DNA of 51,928 nucleotides, taken from the NCBI GenBank assembly GCA_903845115.1, contig CAIMWE010000012.1:1-51928 (forward strand), given 5' to 3'. Source of the DNA: an uncultured Acidobacteriota bacterium (lineage in GTDB: Bacteria > Acidobacteriota > Thermoanaerobaculia > UBA5066). Position numbers and translations under genes: made by a program. This document shows positions 9,464-20,782 of the stretch, piece after piece; within the stretch, counting starts at the first letter, position 1, and each line of letters starts with the position of its first letter. Under the pieces are notes generated by a model. That model was not told where the DNA came from. It saw only the letters and a program-made list of their open reading frames with translations, and searched no databases.

Positions 9464-10894
9464 CTAGCCGGCGGCCTGGATGCGGAGGGCCTTGATGCGC
9501 CGGTAGAGAGTCGAGCGGGCCACCTGCAGCCGGTCGGCGGCCGCCTTGACGTTCCCGTTCACCTCGACCAGCGCCCGGGAGATCGCCGCGCGTTCGTGAT
9601 CCTCGAGCGTGACGAGAGCAGTCGCCGCCTCCACCCTCTGCGGGGCCTGCGGAGCGGGGGCGTACGCCGGCTCCGGCCGGAGTTGCGGGTGCCTGGGGGA
9701 GAACGCCGGGAAGTCGACCCCGGCCACCAGGGGGAAATCCTGAGCGGTCAGGATCGGTCCGCGCGCGGCCACGATCGCCCGGTGGATCGTGTTCTCGAGC
9801 TCGCGGACGTTTCCCGGCCAGTCGTGGCGCTCGAGCTGGGCGAGGGCCTCGGGGGTGAAGCCCTCGACGCTCGCCCCGCTGCCGGTCCGGTGCTTGCGAA
9901 TGAAGTGATGGACGAGGAGCGGAAGGTCTTCCTTTCGTTCGCGGAGCGGAGGGACGCGGATCGGGTAGACGACGACCCGGAAGTAGAGGTCCTCCCGGAA
10001 GGTGCCGTCGCCGACCGCCTCCTGGAGGTCCTTCTTCGTCGCGGAGATCAGCCGGACGCGGAAGGGGATCTGCTCCGAGCCGCCGATGCGGACGAGGGTC
10101 CTCTCCTGCAGGACGCGGAGGAGCCGGGACTGGGTCGGCAATGCCATCTCCCCGAGCTCGTCCAGGAAAAGCGTGCCGTTGTCGGCTTGCTCGAGCTTCC
10201 CTCGCTGCCGCCCGACGGCCCCGGTGAAGGCCCCCTTCTCGTGGCCGAACAGCTCGCTCTCGATGAGCGACTCCGGGATGGCGGCGCAGTTCAGGTCCAC
10301 GAACGGTCCCTTGGCGGCGGGGCCGTGCTCGTGGAGCCAGCGGGCGACGAGCTCCTTCCCCGTCCCGGTCTCGCCCAGGAGGCAGACGGAGATGTCCGAG
10401 TCGATGACGCGCTCCATCTCCTCGCGGAGGGTCGACATGGCCCGGCCCTCTCCCACGAGCGTTCGCGAGAACCCCTCCTCCCGCACGCGTTTCCGCAAGG
10501 ACTGGTTCTCCTTCAGGAGTTCCCGCTTCTCCGCGGCGTTGTGGACCGCCGTCAGGATGCGCTCCCGGTCGGCCGGCTTGACGAGGAAGTCGTAGGCGCC
10601 GTTCCTCATCGCGCGGACGACGGTCGCGACCTCCTCCGTGGCGGTCATGACGATGACCGGGACGAGGCCGCCGTCAGACCGGTACCGCTCGAGGAAGTCG
10701 AGGCCGTTCTCCCCGTCGAGAAGGACGTCCAGCAGGATCGCGTCGGGCTCGGGTCCCTGGGAAAGGTGTCTCCAGGCCTCGGCCGAGGAGGCGGCCTCGA
10801 TGACGTCCCACCCGGCGTTCTCCAGGAAACGCCGGACGACTTGACGGGCGAACGGTTCGTCGTCAATGACGAGGACGCGTCTTGCGGACTCCAT
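9464..10894 (-). CDS. NtrC-family sigma54 response regulator
   Basis: A 476-residue enhancer-binding protein, ATG at 10894. Residues about 6-120 form a receiver domain (VLVIDDE, phospho-acceptor Asp in [11 protein letters not shown], Lys in FLVKPADR). The sigma54-interaction AAA+ domain spans about 145-375, with Walker A GETGTGKE, the sigma54-contacting GAFTGA loop and Walker [11 protein letters not shown]. The C terminus ([20 protein letters not shown]) is a Fis-type DNA-binding helix-turn-helix. No cognate kinase lies beside it. It is downstream of the desaturase gene on the same strand, 20 bases away, so it may be in one transcript with it and could control envelope or lipid genes. Confidence 0.95.
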
Positions 10895-10914
10895 GTGAAC
10901 TCGACAGCATACTA

Positions 10915-13311: not shown

Positions 13312-13962
13312 ATGAACGACACGAAGAGCTGGGGATCGACCGTCCTGGGTTGGTTCGTCGTCCGCGAAGGGGGGCCGGCTCCAGGCGGGGCTCCGGAAGA
13401 GGCGGACTCGCCGCCGCCGGATGCCGTCGCGCCGCCCGCTCCCGTCCCGTTCGAAGGAGGGGCGCCGCCGGCCCCGGGCGGCCGGGTCGAGTTCGACGCG
13501 GTCTTCGAGGCCGCGGGAGTCGGCGCCGCGGAGCGGGACCTGTTCGCGAAGGCCGCCGGCCTCCTCGGGAACCTGCCCGACGCCGACGCGGCCACCCGGA
13601 AGAAGATCGTGGAAGCGTCCCTGAAGGCGTTCGGGATCCCGATCGACGAGATCATCGAGACCGGCGCGCACCAGATCCAGACGCTGGAAGCCTACCTGCA
13701 GGAGCAGGCGACCAGGACGAAGGGCGTCGCGGAGGAATCGCAGACGCTGATCGCCGACTACGAGGCGAAGATCCGCGACGTGCGGGCGCTCCTGGAGCGC
13801 CGGATCGCCGAGCAGGGGGCGGTCCAGACCAGCTGCAACGGAAAGAAGCTCGAGGTCCAGAAGGTTCTCGAGTTCTTCGGACAGGAAGCCGTGGCGCGCG
13901 TCGTGCGGGAGTCGCCGAAACTGGTCGAGCCCGCAGTCGCGCCCTCCCCAAGAAAGGACTGA
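13312..13962 (+). CDS. Coiled-coil protein, first gene of PspA cluster
   Basis: A 216-residue protein of no family I recognise. I use the ATG at 13312 rather than an in-frame TTG at 13291 because AAGG precedes it. It opens with a short hydrophobic-aromatic motif (WGSTVLGWFVV), then a Pro/Ala-rich linker to about residue 55. Next comes a helical domain (FDAVFEAAGVGAAERDLF, then FGIPIDEIIETG) and a coiled coil at about 115-170, ending in a short tail. There is no signal peptide, so it is probably cytosolic or membrane-peripheral. It ends one base before the pspA-like gene starts, so the two proteins are almost certainly made together. It may be an adaptor for the PspA homologue (inference). Confidence 0.75.
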   Translation: MNDTKSWGSTVLGWFVVREGGPAPGGAPEEADSPPPDAVAPPAPVPFEGGAPPAPGGRVEFDAVFEAAGVGAAERDLFAKAAGLLGNLPDADAATRKKIVEASLKAFGIPIDEIIETGAHQIQTLEAYLQEQATRTKGVAEESQTLIADYEAKIRDVRALLERRIAEQGAVQTSCNGKKLEVQKVLEFFGQEAVARVVRESPKLVEPAVAPSPRKD

Positions 13963-13963
13963 A

Positions 13964-14677
13964 ATGGCCAACGTCGGACTCTTCACCCGCCTCGGGAACC
14001 TGTGGAAGGGGTTCCTCTCGATCTGGATCTCGGACGTCGAGAAGGAGCACCCCGAGATCGCCTACGAGAACGCGATCAACTCGATGATCGAGAAGTACTC
14101 GAAGCTGAAGAACGCCACCGCCGCGATCATCAAGCGGCGGGAGGACGTCGACGAGCGGCTGAAGAGGGCCACGAGGGACCTCGCCCAGACCGAGGCCGAG
14201 CTGAGCGCCGCCGTCGAGACGAACCAGGACGACCTCGCCGTCATCCTGATCCAGAAGAAGAACGGGCTGGAGCAGGAGGTCCTCGAGATGAGGGGGGACA
14301 TGGACACCGCGAGCAAGGACGCGGAGTCGGCGAAGTCCTCGCTCCTGCAGGTGCAGGCCGAGATCAAGAAGCTGAAGGCGGAGCGCGACGTGATGCTGGC
14401 GCGGATGCAGTCGGCCCAGGCGCGCCTCCAGATCCAGGGGCAGCTCGATGGCCTCTCGGTGGACGCCGAGGTCAAGGCGCTCGACAACGTCCGCGAGCAC
14501 ATCAAGACCACGGTCGCCGCCGCCAACCTCGGGAAGGAGCTGTCCGAGACGTCGCTCGACGCGAGGCTCGCTTCCCTGAAGGACAAGGCGGGGGACGTCC
14601 AGGCCAAGCAGCAGCTCGCCGAGATCAAGGCCAAGCGTGCGGCGCAGCAGGCGTCGCAAGCGCAGAAGACCATGTAG
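13964..14677 (+). CDS. PspA/IM30 (Vipp1) family protein
   Basis: A 237-residue, almost wholly helical protein with the PspA/IM30 layout: a short N-terminal amphipathic helix (LFTRLGNLWKGFLSIWISD), then long coiled-coil hairpin helices rich in Lys, Glu and Ala (AAIIKRREDVDERLKRA, IQKKNGLEQEVLEM). PspA proteins belong to the ESCRT-III superfamily and form rods or rings that bind and remodel stressed inner membrane. The PspA match is by architecture and N-terminal region; sequence identity to E. coli PspA appears low. The first 24 residues could insert into acidic lipid. It is flanked by genes for a coiled-coil protein and an ABC/OmpA protein and has no PspF, PspB or PspC neighbour. Confidence 0.85.
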   Translation: MANVGLFTRLGNLWKGFLSIWISDVEKEHPEIAYENAINSMIEKYSKLKNATAAIIKRREDVDERLKRATRDLAQTEAELSAAVETNQDDLAVILIQKKNGLEQEVLEMRGDMDTASKDAESAKSSLLQVQAEIKKLKAERDVMLARMQSAQARLQIQGQLDGLSVDAEVKALDNVREHIKTTVAAANLGKELSETSLDARLASLKDKAGDVQAKQQLAEIKAKRAAQQASQAQKTM

Positions 14678-14710
14678 GGACGGGCCACCAGGAACGGGAA
14701 TCGCCGCGTG

Positions 14711-14730
14711 CCGGCGCCGTCGGGCGCCGG
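14711..14730 (+). promoter_or_regulatory. Perfect 8-bp stem-loop between pspA-like and SBP genes
   Basis: CCGGCGCC, a GTCG loop, then GGCGCCGG. No T-run follows, so it is unlikely to be a full terminator. It may stabilise the upstream mRNA or set the ratio of the PspA-like protein to transporter. Confidence 0.5.
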
Positions 14731-14765
14731 GCGCCACAACCGGAACGGTCCTAAGGGAGGGTGAC

Positions 14766-16403
14766 GTGAAACTGACTCCGTTCGCCAAGTTCTTCATCAC
14801 CGTGGTGATCCTCGGCGTCGTCGGGTATGTCGTCTGGGAGAAGAAGGGGTCCGACATCCGGAAGTGGGCCGGCGCCGAGAAGGCGCCCGCGGCGGCCGCC
14901 GCGAAGGCCGCCCAGTCCGGGAACGACTTCGAGGCGCTGAAGAACCCGCCGCCCGATCCGGAACGGGGGAAGGGCGGAGCCGGGGTGACGGGCGCTGCGC
15001 TCTCCGGGGGCGGAAAGCTGGGACGCCCGCTGGTCGTCGCGATCAACACGTGGGCCGGGCACGCGCCCGGGATCGTCGCGAACCGCGGCATGGAGCCGAA
15101 CGCCCAGAGCTGGTACAAGACGAAGTACGGCCTCGACGTGAAGTTCGTCCTTCTCGAGGATCCGTCGTCGAAGCTGGCCGCGTTCCGCAAGGGGGACGTG
15201 GACATCATGTGGAACACGGTCGACAACTGGGCGCGGGAGGCGTCGATCCTCGCCGAGCAGAGCCTGAAGGCGAAGTCCGTGATCATGCAGGACTGGTCGC
15301 GCGGCGGGGACGGCATCGTCTCGCTCGCCTCGATCAGCTCCGTCGAGCAGCTCAAGGGCCACAAGATCGCCTGCACGCAGTTCACGCCGTCGCACTTCCT
15401 CCTCCTCTACCTGCTGGCACAGTCCGGCCTCAGCCCGGAGGACCGCGCGGCCGTCGAGAAGGGGATCGTCTTCACGCAGGACGCGCCGGCGGCGGCCGCC
15501 ATGTTCAAGGCCAAGCAGGTCGACGCCGCCGTGACCTGGGAGCCGGACCTCTCCGCGGCCGTCACGGCGCGGGGCGACGAGGCCCACGTCCTCGTCTCGA
15601 CCACGGCCGCCACGAACATCATCGCGGACACGCTCTGCGCGAGGCAGGACCTGATCGACAAGGCCCCGGACACTGTCCGTGACTTCGTCCACGGCTGGTT
15701 CGACGGGATCGAGATGATCAAGACCGACCCGGCGCAGGCCTATGCTCTGGTCGCGAAGGCGCTCAAGCTCGACGACGAGACGGTCTCCGGGATGCTCTCC
15801 GGCCTCAAGCTGACCCCCTTTGCCGACAACGCCCAGTTCTACGGGCTCACCGGCGGCAAGGCGCATTACGAGACCCTGTTCGAGACCGCCTTCGTCATCT
15901 GGCGGAAGAAAGGGCTCGTCTCGAAGCCGGTCGACGCAAAGGACTGGGCCGATACCCGCTTCCTCTCGGCCCTCGCCCCGTCCTACCAGGAGCAGAAGGT
16001 CGAGGAGCCGAAGGTCGCGGCCAAGGCCCCGTCCACCAAGGACCGGGCGATCATCAACAAGCAGATCCAGGTCCACTTCACCCCCGGGTCGGACGAGATC
16101 ATGCCGGGCTCCTACTTCGTCCTCGACGCCCTCGGCGAGACGATGACCTCCTTCGGGAGCACGTACCTCCGGATCGAGGGGAACACCGACGCCGTCGGCA
16201 AGGCGCAGTCGAACATGGTCCTCTCCGAGCGGCGCGCCCTCGCGGTGAAGAACTACGTCCTGAAAAACTTCCCGAACATCCCGGCCGCGAGGTTCCAGAC
16301 CATCGGCCACGGCCAGGCGAACCCGGTCGCGCCCAACACGACCGAAGCCGGGCGCCAGCTGAACCGCCGGACCGACATCAAGGTCGTCCTTGCGGCGGAC
16401 TGA
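14766..16403 (+). CDS. Membrane-anchored ABC substrate-binding protein fused to OmpA domain
   Basis: A 545-residue fusion, GTG start with an AAGGGAGGG ribosome site 5 bases upstream. Residues 5-25 form one transmembrane helix (FFITVVILGVVGYVVW). Residues about 88-400 are a periplasmic SsuA/NMT1-type substrate-binding domain (VVAINTWAGHAPGI, KGDVDIMWNTVDNW, VDAAVTWEPDL). Residues about 428-545 are an OmpA C-terminal peptidoglycan-binding domain with IEGNTDAVG, LSERRALAVKNY and the NRRTDIKV end. The family normally delivers sulfonates, nitrate or thiamine precursors to an ABC importer. Here the binding domain is held in the inner membrane and tied to peptidoglycan, an unusual arrangement that suggests sensing or envelope bridging. 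The ligand is unknown. Confidence 0.92.
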   Translation: MKLTPFAKFFITVVILGVVGYVVWEKKGSDIRKWAGAEKAPAAAAAKAAQSGNDFEALKNPPPDPERGKGGAGVTGAALSGGGKLGRPLVVAINTWAGHAPGIVANRGMEPNAQSWYKTKYGLDVKFVLLEDPSSKLAAFRKGDVDIMWNTVDNWAREASILAEQSLKAKSVIMQDWSRGGDGIVSLASISSVEQLKGHKIACTQFTPSHFLLLYLLAQSGLSPEDRAAVEKGIVFTQDAPAAAAMFKAKQVDAAVTWEPDLSAAVTARGDEAHVLVSTTAATNIIADTLCARQDLIDKAPDTVRDFVHGWFDGIEMIKTDPAQAYALVAKALKLDDETVSGMLSGLKLTPFADNAQFYGLTGGKAHYETLFETAFVIWRKKGLVSKPVDAKDWADTRFLSALAPSYQEQKVEEPKVAAKAPSTKDRAIINKQIQVHFTPGSDEIMPGSYFVLDALGETMTSFGSTYLRIEGNTDAVGKAQSNMVLSERRALAVKNYVLKNFPNIPAARFQTIGHGQANPVAPNTTEAGRQLNRRTDIKVVLAAD

Positions 16404-17187
16404 CCTCTTCGCGCTCCGGGCGCCTCTGCCGAGGGCGACGTCGGTCGCCCTCGGATTCGTCGCGCCGGCCGTCGTCCTCGGCGGCTGGTGCCTGGCCAGC
16501 TACGGAGGTTTAGCGCCGCCCGATTTCCTCCCGTCGCCGACGGAGGTGGTGAAGGGGACTCTTCAGCTCTTCGTCCAGCACGACCTCGGGACGGCCATCC
16601 TGATCTCGACCCGCCGGATCGGCCTCTCCTTCCTCCTCGCGGCGGCCCTGGCTCTGCCGCTCGGGATCCTGATGGGGGCATTCGAGCCGGTCAACCGGCT
16701 GTTCGAGCCGGTGATGTCCCCCCTGCGGTACATGCCGATCTCGGCCTTCATCCCGCTCCTGATCCTCTGGTTCGGGATCTACGAGAAGCAGAAGATCGCC
16801 TTCCTCTTCCTGGGCGTCTTCGTCTACCTCCTCCCGGTCGTCGTCACGGCGATCCGGGCCGTGCCCGAGGAGCTGGTCCAGACCGCGCTGACGCTCGGCG
16901 CGACGAGGGGGCAGGTCGTCCGGACCGTCCTCCTCCCGGCGGCCGCCCCGGAGATCTTCGACTCGTTCCGCGTCATGAACGCGATCTCCTGGACCTACGT
17001 CATCCTGGCCGAGGCGGTGAACCCGGAGCACGGGCTCGGCTACATGGTCGAGCTGGCTCGGACGCACCAGAAGGCGTCGTGGTCCTTCGCGGGCCTCCTC
17101 GTCATCGGGGGGATCGGCCTCTTCACCGACTTCGTGATCCGCTCGCTCTCCTCGATCCTCTTCCGGTGGCGGGAGGTGGAGGGATGA
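16390..17187 (+). CDS. ABC transporter permease (SsuC/TauC-like)
   Basis: A 265-residue permease with a TTG start that overlaps the end of the SBP-OmpA gene by 14 bases. It has about six membrane helices. The EAA loop that contacts the ATPase reads TALTLGATRGQVVRTVLLPAAAPEIF, written here as TALTLGATRGQ then LLPAAAPEIF, and the motif is well conserved. It matches the nitrate/sulfonate/taurine (BPD_transp_1) class. With the neighbouring ATPase and the fused binding domain it completes an importer. Start choice is supported by tight overlap on both sides. Confidence 0.9.
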   Translation: MRRTDLFALRAPLPRATSVALGFVAPAVVLGGWCLASYGGLAPPDFLPSPTEVVKGTLQLFVQHDLGTAILISTRRIGLSFLLAAALALPLGILMGAFEPVNRLFEPVMSPLRYMPISAFIPLLILWFGIYEKQKIAFLFLGVFVYLLPVVVTAIRAVPEELVQTALTLGATRGQVVRTVLLPAAAPEIFDSFRVMNAISWTYVILAEAVNPEHGLGYMVELARTHQKASWSFAGLLVIGGIGLFTDFVIRSLSSILFRWREVEG

Positions 17188-18002
17188 GCCCCGGCGCCGA
17201 GGGGACCCCGGTCAAGCTCGAGCTGAAGGACCTCTGCATCACCTATCTCCGGAGCGACGGCGTCGGGACGGAGGCCGTCCGCGACGTCTCGCTCCAGATC
17301 CACGACAAGCCGGGCGTCGGGGAGGTCGTCGTCTTTCTCGGCCCGTCGGGGTGCGGGAAGTCGACGATCCTGAAGGCGGTGGCCGGCCTCCTGCCGCCGA
17401 CGAAGGGGTCGGTCGAGATCGACGGCAAGCCGGTCGACGGGGTTGGCCGGGACCGCGGCATGGTCTTCCAGGCCTATACCTCCTTCGCCTGGCTCACGGT
17501 CAGGCAGAACGTCGAGTACGGGCTGAAGCTCCAGGGAATCGACGCGGCCGAGCGCCGGAGAAAGGCGGAGAAGGTCCTCGAGCAGGTCGGCCTCCACGAC
17601 TTCGCCGACCGCTACCCGAAGGACCTCTCGGGCGGGATGAAGCAGCGGGTCGCCATCGCGCGCACGCTGGTGAACCAGCCCCGCGTCGTCCTGATGGACG
17701 AGCCGTTCGGCGCCCTCGACCCCCAGACCCGGTGGGGGATGCAGGGGCTGCTCCTCGACGTGTCGAAGAGCGAGGACAACACGATTCTCTTCGTCACGCA
17801 CGACGTGTCGGAAGCGGTCTACCTCGCCGACACGGTCTACGTGCTGTCGGCCCGCCCCGCCCGGATCCTCCACCGCGTGGAGGTCCCGGCGTTCGAGGAG
17901 AGGAGCATCGCGCTGAAGTCGTCGTCGGAGTTCCGAGCCGTCGAGAAGAAGCTCCTCGACCTGCTCTACGCCTCGCCTCCGTCCGCGGGCGCGAAGGGCT
18001 GA
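17184..18002 (+). CDS. ABC transporter ATP-binding protein (SsuB/TauB-like)
   Basis: A 272-residue ATPase whose ATG overlaps the permease stop (ATGA). Walker A GPSGCGKST, Q-loop MVFQ, signature LSGGMKQR, Walker B VVLMDEPFG and the H-loop THD are all intact, so it should hydrolyse ATP. It fits the nitrate/sulfonate/taurine importer ATPase group. The C terminus has an extra helical tail (FRAVEKKLLDLLY) that may contact a partner. It is followed by a 2-base gap to the next gene. Confidence 0.93.
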   Translation: MSPGAEGTPVKLELKDLCITYLRSDGVGTEAVRDVSLQIHDKPGVGEVVVFLGPSGCGKSTILKAVAGLLPPTKGSVEIDGKPVDGVGRDRGMVFQAYTSFAWLTVRQNVEYGLKLQGIDAAERRRKAEKVLEQVGLHDFADRYPKDLSGGMKQRVAIARTLVNQPRVVLMDEPFGALDPQTRWGMQGLLLDVSKSEDNTILFVTHDVSEAVYLADTVYVLSARPARILHRVEVPAFEERSIALKSSSEFRAVEKKLLDLLYASPPSAGAKG

Positions 18003-18004
18003 CC

Positions 18005-18925
18005 GTGCCCCAGACGACGAGGCCGGCGACGCCCGTCCCTCCGGCGACGGAGAAGCGGACCGAGGGGGCGGTCGAGAAGGTCCTCGACGCGTCGCTCCCC
18101 GGCGGGCTGTCGCAGGCCGCGCGGGCCGGCCTCCGGGAGCAGGCCCGCCAGCCGTCGTACCTGAAGCTGGCCTTCGCCAACCCGTACAACGTCTCCCTCC
18201 TGGCCGGCGGCCTCGCCGCGTCGGCGATCACGCTCAATCCGATTCCGGCCGTGGTCGCCCTCGGCCTGGAGGGGCTCTGGCTCCTGCACGGACCGGACAA
18301 CGCGGCCCTACGCCGCCTCGTCTGGGACCCGAAGATCGAGGCGGCCCGGAAGGCGAGCGACCAGGCCGGCCGGCAGGCCCGGATCCGGGCGCTCGGGGAG
18401 GCGGAGCGGTCGCGAGTGGAGGCCCTCTCGTCGCGCCGCGAGGAGATCGGGAACCTCGCCGCCCAGAACCCGTCCTTCACGGGCGACCTGCTCCGGACCG
18501 AGCTTCTCAAGACCGACCGCCTGGTGGATGCTTTCATCGAGCTCTCCCTCACGTGCGCCCGGTACGAGGCGTACCTCGGCTCGGTGGACGACCGCACGAT
18601 GCAGCGGGACGTCGACCGGTACGCCGCGGCGGTCCGGGCCGGCGCGCCGGACGACCCGCGGACGGGCCTCGCCCAGAAGAACCTGGCGGTCGTCCTGAAG
18701 CGGCAGGAGCGGATGAAGGAGATCAAGCGGTACCTGGGCGTGGCGAAGGGGCAGCTCGACCTGATCGAGAACTCGTTCCAGCTGATCGCCGACCAGATCG
18801 TGACGATGCAGTCGCCGCAGGAGCTGTCGGGGCAGCTCGACGAGCTCCTGAACGGCGTCGAGGCGATCCGAGAGACCGCCCGCGACACCGAGGCCCTGCT
18901 CGGGTCCGGCGACCGGGAACTGTAG
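18005..18925 (+). CDS. Membrane coiled-coil protein of PspA cluster
   Basis: A 306-residue protein of no family I know, GTG start 2 bases after the ATPase stop. The first 60 residues are a charged/Pro-rich tail. A hydrophobic hairpin follows at about residues 60-96 (VSLLAGGLAASAITL, then AVVALGLEGLWLL), probably two short membrane spans. The remainder is a long helical, charged region (residues 105-300) with coiled-coil character (ALGEAERSRVEALSSRREEI; RYLGVAKGQLDLIENSF). By position and shape it could link the inner membrane to the PspA-like protein or to the AAA+ ATPase encoded next. That is inference only. Confidence 0.78.
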   Translation: MPQTTRPATPVPPATEKRTEGAVEKVLDASLPGGLSQAARAGLREQARQPSYLKLAFANPYNVSLLAGGLAASAITLNPIPAVVALGLEGLWLLHGPDNAALRRLVWDPKIEAARKASDQAGRQARIRALGEAERSRVEALSSRREEIGNLAAQNPSFTGDLLRTELLKTDRLVDAFIELSLTCARYEAYLGSVDDRTMQRDVDRYAAAVRAGAPDDPRTGLAQKNLAVVLKRQERMKEIKRYLGVAKGQLDLIENSFQLIADQIVTMQSPQELSGQLDELLNGVEAIRETARDTEALLGSGDREL

Positions 18926-18934
18926 AGGAGCCCC

Positions 18935-20782
18935 ATGGTCGAACCGCGTCCGCTTCCAGCCTGGGCCGACGAGCTGCGCCGCCGGTACCTCCGAGGCGAG
19001 TCGTCGATCTTCCTCCTGCACGGCAACGTCTTCGACCTCGTCCTCGACGGGGACAGGCTCCGGCCCCTGACGGATTTCCTCACCGACACGCTCCTGAAGG
19101 AGTCGCGCGACACGATCGCCGTCTACAACGTGGCGACCGGCGTCCGCTTCGCGAAGAAGGCGAAGGTGGTCGAGGCCCAGGCGGCGCTCCTCCTGGAGTC
19201 GGAGAAGGCGAAGGTCCTCGCGGGCCTCGAGCGGCTGCTCGTCACGTCGGCCAGAGTCGGCGTCGTCCTCGAGTACGCCGAGACGATCGCTCCCGCGGGC
19301 GACCCCTCGTTCCAGGCCGATTTCGACCGCTCCGCCATCGTCACGCTCCACCGCTGGTCGTTCCTGCCGCAGATCGAGTCAAACGACAACGTCGTCCTGC
19401 TGATCGCGGAGAACCTCGCGGACCTCTCGCCGAAGCTGGTCTCCAACCCCAAGGTTGCGGTCGTCGACGTCCCGATGCCCGATCGCGACACCCGGAAGAA
19501 GGCGGCGCTCGTCGCCGACCCGCGGCTCTCCGACAGGGACGCCGACCGGTATGCCGAGGTGACCGCCGGCCTGAAGTCTGTCCAGATCGCCTCCATCCTC
19601 GCCCCGCCGCCGCCGTCCGAGGAGGACCAGGCCGAGAGGGAGGCCTTCATCGCCGGGATCCTCGGGGGGAGCCCGGACGCCGCGGAGCGGGCGAAGAAGC
19701 TGGCGGGGCTCACCGCCGGCCTGAACCGCGACGAGATCAAGAAGCTCCTCGCCCCCGGCGCGGCCGAGCCCGCGCCGACGGCCGAGAGCGCGGCCGAGCG
19801 CTCCCGCCGGGAGATCGACCGCCTCATCTCCAAGCGGAAGCGGGAGATTCTCGAGCGCGAGTGCTTCGGCCTCGTCGAGTTCGTCGAGCCCGAGCACGGC
19901 TTCGAGGTGGTGGGCGGCATGGACGAGGTCAAGCAGGACCTCCTCCTGGTCGCCGCGAACATCCGCGACGGACGGGTGTCCCGCGTTCCCATGGGGATCC
20001 TCTTCACTGGGCCGATGGGGACCGGCAAGACCTTCGTCGCCGAGGCGTTCGCGAAGGAGTGCGGCCTCCCGACGATCAAGCTGAAGAATTTCCGGTCCAA
20101 GTGGGTCGGGGCGACCGAGGGGAACCTGGAGAAGATCCTGACCGTGATCAAGGCGATCGGCCAGGTGGTCGTCATCGTCGACGAGGGAGACCGGGCGTTC
20201 GGCAACACGGACGGCGACGGGGACGGCGGGACCAGCTCCCGCGTCATCGCCCGGATCAAGGAGTTCATGTCCGACACCTCCAACAGGGGCCGGATCCTCT
20301 TCCTCGTCATGACGAACCGCCCCGACAAGCTCGACGTCGACCTCAAGAGGGCCGGCCGGCTCGACCGGAAGATCCCCTTCCTCTACTCGCAGACGGCCGA
20401 GGAGGTGGAGAACGTCGCCAGGGCCCAGGTGCGGAAGAACAAGGTGAAGACCGGCGTCGACTTCGCGTCGATCCGGGACGGCTTCTCGAAGAAGCTCGTC
20501 GGCTACTCGAATGCCGACGTCGAGGCGGTCGTCCTCCTCGCGAACGACACGGCGGCGAGGGAGGCCGACGGCGACGCCCCGGTCGGGGCGGAGCACTTCC
20601 TGGCCGCCGCGGCCGACTACTTCCCGAGCCGCGACGTGGAGCTGCTGGAATACATGGAGCTGCTCGCGGTCTTCGAAGCCTCCAGCCGCAGGCTCCTCCC
20701 GGCCAAGTACGCGAACATGACCCCGGAGGAGCTCGACGCGCGTCTCCGGCTCTTGCGGGCGACGGTAGGCAACCGCCGGTAG
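18935..20782 (+). CDS. AAA+ ATPase (Vps4/FtsH-like) of PspA cluster
   Basis: A 615-residue ATPase. The N-terminal half (about 1-260) looks like a degenerate nucleotide-binding domain with no Walker A ([26 protein letters not shown]), as in Ycf46-like AAA proteins. A linker (about 265-300) leads to a classic AAA domain with Walker A GPMGTGKT (about 359), pore-like [11 protein letters not shown], Walker [10 protein letters not shown] (about 411), sensor 1 MTNRPDKLD and the arginine finger region RAGRLDRK. This domain type forms hexamers that thread proteins, as Vps4 does with ESCRT-III. Its operon partner is a PspA-family (ESCRT-III-like) protein, so remodelling of PspA polymers is an attractive inference. 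Confidence 0.9.

Follow-up and report, generated by a model that had tools for sequence, protein, structure and literature searches.

A PspA operon that ends in a two-domain AAA ATPase

The window (the whole stretch of 51,928 nucleotides that was analyzed) carries a seven-gene operon on the plus strand at 13312–20782, in which neighboring genes overlap or almost touch and the largest gap is <100 bases. The gene order is U1, PspA, an OmpA-fused binding protein, a permease, an ABC ATPase, U2, and, in last position, an AAA gene (18935–20782). The product of this last gene is a PspA-associated AAA ATPase of 615 aa, with an ATG start, a degenerate N-terminal AAA domain, a helical linker, an active AAA domain, and a conserved C-terminal helix ending in VGNRR. 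The loci closest to it (93% and 80% identity) are titled Acidobacteria or Acidobacteriota, which points to an acidobacterial genome; that genome also has FtsH, CDC48-like, and Ycf46-like AAA proteins.

The second gene (13964–14677) encodes a 237-aa PspA/IM30 protein, a member of the bacterial ESCRT-III superfamily, with a PspA_IM30 domain score over the cut-off (PF04012: 66.5 bits, cut-off 33.9), and a genome search returned one PspA of the operon type in its own genome. The preliminary description had the ATPase co-located with a PspA-like protein; the two do share one tight operon, but PspA lies five genes upstream and is not adjacent. Between them are the genes of an ABC importer: an NMT1/SsuA-type substrate-binding protein, membrane-anchored and fused to OmpA (14766–16403; PF09084: 45.3 bits, PF00691: 59.9 bits, N-terminal transmembrane segment), a TauC/SsuC-type permease whose gene overlaps that of the binding protein (16390–17187; PF00528: 74 bits), and a TauB/SsuB-type ATPase (17184–18002; PF00005: 120.4 bits). 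U2 (18005–18925), the third core gene, encodes an uncharacterized helical protein of 306 aa with a membrane hairpin at residues 60–94 and long antiparallel helices. U1 (13312–13962) encodes a soluble, helical, uncharacterized protein of 216 aa with nothing above the Pfam cut-offs and a conserved C-terminal KLEVQKVLEFFGQEAVARVVRESPKL; it is kept 5′ of PspA in most of the close loci described below and is missing from the distant PspA-U2-AAA loci. The conservation near the end of U1 takes the form KLEVQKVLEFFGQEAV, which has no family match.

A gene for an NtrC-type sigma54 response regulator (9464–10900, minus strand) lies upstream of the operon at a distance of ~2.4 kb, in divergent orientation. 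The psp operons are sigma54-controlled elsewhere. A sigma54 promoter for the present operon was considered and rejected: seven matches were found in the window vs. 6.25 expected, none of them immediately upstream.

Operons of this type, and the analogy with Vps4 and ESCRT-III, have already been published: Ravi et al. (2024; PMC11237479) described operons with PspA and an ATPase of two AAA domains (e.g., OGG56892.1) and proposed a Vps4/ESCRT-III relationship. The published description matches the genes found here (PspA, an AAA protein with an inactive N-terminal copy, an ABC ATPase, a permease, and a solute-binding (PBPB)-OmpA protein), so that the operon in the window is a further member of that predicted system. 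The main text of the same paper contains no tail motif, exact co-occurrence, or transporter-free minimal loci, and, set against that text, the tail motif and the exact co-occurrence reported below appear to be new. A literature search among open-licence papers found no experimental study of the PspA/two-AAA system.

Motor, dead domain, and relationship to Vps4

The C-terminal half of the ATPase matches Pfam AAA at residues 355–482 (E = 8.1e-26, 91.4 bits, cut-off 21.2) and has the Walker A, Walker B, sensor 1, and arginine finger of a classical AAA protein. Walker A (GPMGTGKT, residues 359–366, 20009–20032) is invariant among close homologs except for one T to S, and pore loop 1 (NFRSKWVG, residues 385–392, 20087–20110) is conserved in homologs. 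Walker B lies at residues 411–420 (20165–20194), and sensor 1 (MTNRPDKLD, residues 459–467) is followed by an arginine-finger region of the CDC48/FtsH type (KRAGRLDRK, residues 471–479; 20309–20371 for both). The catalytic key residues are invariant or almost so across 40 homologs, and the intact C-terminal motor that had been described from these motifs is thereby confirmed.

The N-terminal half is different: none of the 40 homologs has GxxxxGK[ST] in its first 300 residues. An AlphaFold2 monomer model built from the homolog sequences (mean pLDDT 79.8) matched the tandem AAA proteins Rix7, NVL, and p97 over ~600 alignment columns (best E = 1.2e-19). VIA-align placed residues 8–477 onto D1-D2 of Rix7 (7swl_E: Z = 16.9, 364 residues, rmsd 4.8), and the alignments with tandem D1-D2 of Rix7 and p97 ranged over Z = 16–17, 364–393 residues, and rmsd 4.8–6.8. 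Because the model matches tandem AAA structures and Walker A is missing in the homologs, the N-terminal half is best described as a dead AAA fold without Walker motifs, in agreement with the preliminary description.

We placed the AAA domain in a tree with references drawn from PDB sequences and the AAA proteins of its own genome (the PAN row being a typed query that matches 3h4m at 485.9 bits). The AAA domains linked to PspA group together (support 100/99, and 100/100 without two long branches), and a second group (support 100/100) consists of Vps4, katanin, spastin, and Msp1; an AU test did not reject the PspA-linked group as sister of the Vps4 clade (p-AU = 0.50). Neither accessory domain of Vps4 was detected in the ATPase: there was no match to MIT (PF04212) at E ≤ 0.1, the N-terminal half folding as an AAA domain, and no Pfam match to Vps4_C (PF09336). 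Against the CdvC equivalog model, the ATPase scored 49.4 bits vs. a cut-off of 650. Descent from Vps4 is therefore not upheld, the AAA domain lying outside the Vps4/katanin/spastin/Msp1 clade and both MIT and Vps4_C being absent; judged by its sequence, the ATPase is not a Vps4.

The likeness to Vps4/CdvC consists of a classical AAA motor with a K-W-V/M-G pore loop (KWVG here, KWMG in Vps4) and the pairing with an ESCRT-III superfamily gene, whereas the two AAA folds per chain and the separate clade set the ATPase apart. The arginine-finger region also differs, being of the CDC48/FtsH/PAN form here (GRLDR within KRAGRLDRK) and RRRFERR in Vps4. With CDC48/p97, Rix7, and NVL, which give the best whole-length structural matches, the ATPase shares the tandem AAA arrangement, but its N-terminal ring has no nucleotide motifs and it has no N domain; CDC48 is also its best NCBIfam score, at 83 bits far under the cut-off of 802.65. 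Ycf46-type proteins share the degenerate N-terminal AAA, the active C-terminal AAA, and a similar linker, but are only ~26–30% identical to the ATPase, and the tree gives the long branch of Ycf46 no firm place. The acidobacterial genome itself has another protein with a dead and an active AAA domain (L064:1003-2508; G000 C91), which we take to be Ycf46-like and which has no PspA context on the DNA read.

Inheritance of the ATPase with PspA

A scan of 84,980 species genomes returned 58 close AAA loci (42–93% identity), which come from Acidobacteriota, Myxococcota, or other deltaproteobacterial metagenome-assembled genomes (MAGs), and one titled betaproteobacterium. PspA was present on the fetched DNA at 39 of the 58; at 12 the upstream DNA was too short to tell, and at seven no PspA was nearby, the genomes of these seven having a matching PspA elsewhere, often with further operon genes. 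In a phylum survey of 347 genomes, with a close AAA defined by E < 1e-180 and a close PspA by E < 1e-60, the two were found in an identical set of nine genomes, with no discordance and always on one contig; as the nine genomes represent four families, they amount to fewer than nine independent cases. Two species of one genus (G108 and G065) differ in AAA and PspA together.

The same association is visible among distant AAA relatives, of which 26 loci were sampled (37–46% identity). PspA lies beside the AAA gene at 19 of them, mostly with U2 as well, and the best-scoring group has no importer. Six of the remaining seven loci have a matching PspA elsewhere in the genome (L102 was left out). The distant AAA type occurs in 17 genomes, all 17 of which have the matching PspA type. 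The converse fails, 20 genomes of one family having the distant-type PspA with no AAA at the search threshold; an AAA profile search of 13 genomes of this ATPase-free family returned FtsH-level matches alone, except for a 152-aa fragment in G325. This fragment (L160, G325:C47:10240-10686) is C-terminal and belongs to a PspA-linked AAA; it is either cut by a contig edge or a remnant. The dataset consists mostly of MAG genomes, and all these counts overstate independence because family members are related. The link of the ATPase to PspA is strong, and the co-conservation that the preliminary description had proposed as its test is found both in the nine of 347 genomes that have the close AAA and the close PspA and in the 17 of 17 genomes with the distant type.

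The importer is a less constant neighbor. It is present, in nearly always the same order, at 31 of the 39 PspA-linked close loci, and Ravi et al. (PMC11237479) suggest, in the published description, remodeling linked to solute transport. One could therefore suppose that the ATPase serves the importer/OmpA complex in assembly, quality control, or membrane-state coupling, with PspA as a shared scaffold. Eight PspA-linked close loci (L009, L011, L016, L018, L034, L052, L053, and L058), however, keep PspA beside the AAA gene without the importer, as do the distant PspA-U2-AAA loci, and we regard this explanation as very improbable.

U2 is the immediate neighbor of the ATPase gene in most loci, whereas the PspA gene usually is not. 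This adjacency, together with the layout that the ATPase shares with Ycf46 (hhalign E = 2.4e-16, starting at the end of the N domain), is what would be expected of a chaperone akin to Ycf46 that acts chiefly on U2 or some other membrane protein, with PspA merely marking the site. U2 and its PspA nevertheless persist in the family where the ATPase was not found, and L011, L016, L052, and L053 are PspA-AAA pairs without a detected U2, so that a chaperone of this kind seems quite unlikely. U2 stays next to PspA whether or not the ATPase is there, and is present in all 15 loci read of the ATPase-free family (L143–L157); in these phyla, it may act more generally as a membrane partner of PspA.

The nature of U2 was approached through its sequence and its model (pLDDT 80). 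No match was found in Pfam at E ≤ 10 or by Foldseek at E ≤ 0.001, and hhalign gave a probability of 0.2% for U2 vs. PspA. VIA-align returned helical-bundle and BAR-type matches at Z = 8–12, which does not reach the noise level stated for helical proteins, with no ESCRT-III chain among the matches listed. Homology of U2 to Snf7/PspA thus finds no support from Pfam, Foldseek, hhalign, or VIA-align. The published description of the operons by Ravi et al. (PMC11237479) mentions Snf7 homologs with a transmembrane segment, whereas U2 shows no similarity to PspA; U2 may still be the transmembrane-bearing Snf7 homolog of that description.

The C-terminal tail of PspA and a proposed mechanism

The PspA of the window has two C-terminal features that could be read by a partner: a MIM1-like sequence, ETSLDARLASLK (PspA residues 195–206, 14546–14581), and the C-terminal KTM (14666–14674), which we take from the comparison of tails among partners as a candidate ATPase recognition tail. 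The first is an exact match to the MIM1 consensus D/ExxLxxRLxxLR/K (PMC6862464). The search for a MIM-like motif suggested in the preliminary description was successful to this extent, the consensus being present in 29 of 38 close PspA partners, including the one in the window; it is present in no distant partner. The end of ordinary PspA, DDRLAALK, nearly matches the consensus. Given both its absence from distant partners and the near match in ordinary PspA tails, we rejected MIM1 as a diagnostic recognition motif.

The extreme C terminus behaves differently. Close partners have a variable linker and then an end of the K[TS][ML]-COOH type (K/R-T/S-M/L), counted in 47 of 48, the exception (L012) being due to ORF choice and having KTM as its actual tail. 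Distant partners have [KR][TS]LG near the end in 15 of 17, usually as EKTLGP, the strict motif being missing in two that have the ATPase (L094 and L124), and a third group of partners has the tail motif in four of 10. Shuffled tails would be expected to give 0.6 of 48, 0.2 of 17, and 0.06 of 10, respectively. Among the distant-type PspAs of the ATPase-free family, the motif was found in none of 15 (Fisher P = 2e-7, a value that ignores relatedness and concerns one lineage), and in other PspAs of the same genomes, it was found in one of 11. Since the ATPase-free PspAs are all from one family, the tail and the ATPase may each have been lost in a single event, and several of these PspAs retain a partly similar KQIGA. 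A looser pattern, [KR][TSEQ][LMI]G, was discarded, as it also matches the helix sequence KRQMG and the KQIGA of ATPase-free PspAs.

The ATPase is the sole operon protein that tracks the tail, because the distant core loci lack both U1 and the importer, and U2 persists without the ATPase; this is why we propose the tail of PspA as a putative docking site for the ATPase. Co-inheritance itself is silent on direction, and in E. coli PspA is an established adaptor and inhibitor of PspF, an AAA+ activator (PMC3128695, PMC6003685). By analogy, PspA could be a regulator that keeps the AAA protein inactive, or tied to the membrane, until it is released by stress, the substrate being something else. The ATPase, however, has no DNA-binding or sigma54 domain, PspF binding maps to the PspA fragment 1–144, and a conserved tail after a variable linker looks more like the tag of a substrate than like a coiled-coil surface for inhibition. 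Such a regulatory role for PspA is, in our view, unlikely, although less so than the importer- and U2-centered explanations above.

We think it fairly likely, from sequence and gene context, that the ATPase is instead an AAA unfoldase dedicated to PspA, resembling in its action that of Vps4 on ESCRT-III and belonging to a different AAA lineage. The ATPase would form a hexamer at the inner membrane, where the degenerate ring at its N terminus would take the place of an MIT domain and dock the PspA tail (KTM-COOH here, KTLGP in distant relatives). The motor would then thread PspA past the W390-V391 pore loop and pull subunits out of the PspA polymer, allowing the coat to be remodeled or recycled. 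U2, which has a membrane hairpin, probably serves to anchor the PspA coat or to nucleate it, and the ABC importer, with OmpA as its anchor to peptidoglycan, would be a frequent client or accessory outside the core. PspA itself is reported to have weak ATPase activity and to assemble into rods unaided (PMC11746142), and hence the AAA ATPase would tune turnover rather than enable assembly.

The more specific proposition, that this is a bacterial ESCRT-III disassembly machine of non-Vps4 lineage in which a dead AAA ring reads the KTM/KTLGP tail of PspA, is a serious possibility that we hold tentatively. If true, the turnover of ESCRT-III by an ATPase arose at least twice in evolution. The operon offers a concrete system of two or three genes and a three-residue tail that is open to direct testing. 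Its gene order varies in one distant subgroup (L103 and L107), in which U2 is upstream of the AAA gene, and PspA and the OmpA-bearing binding protein are downstream.
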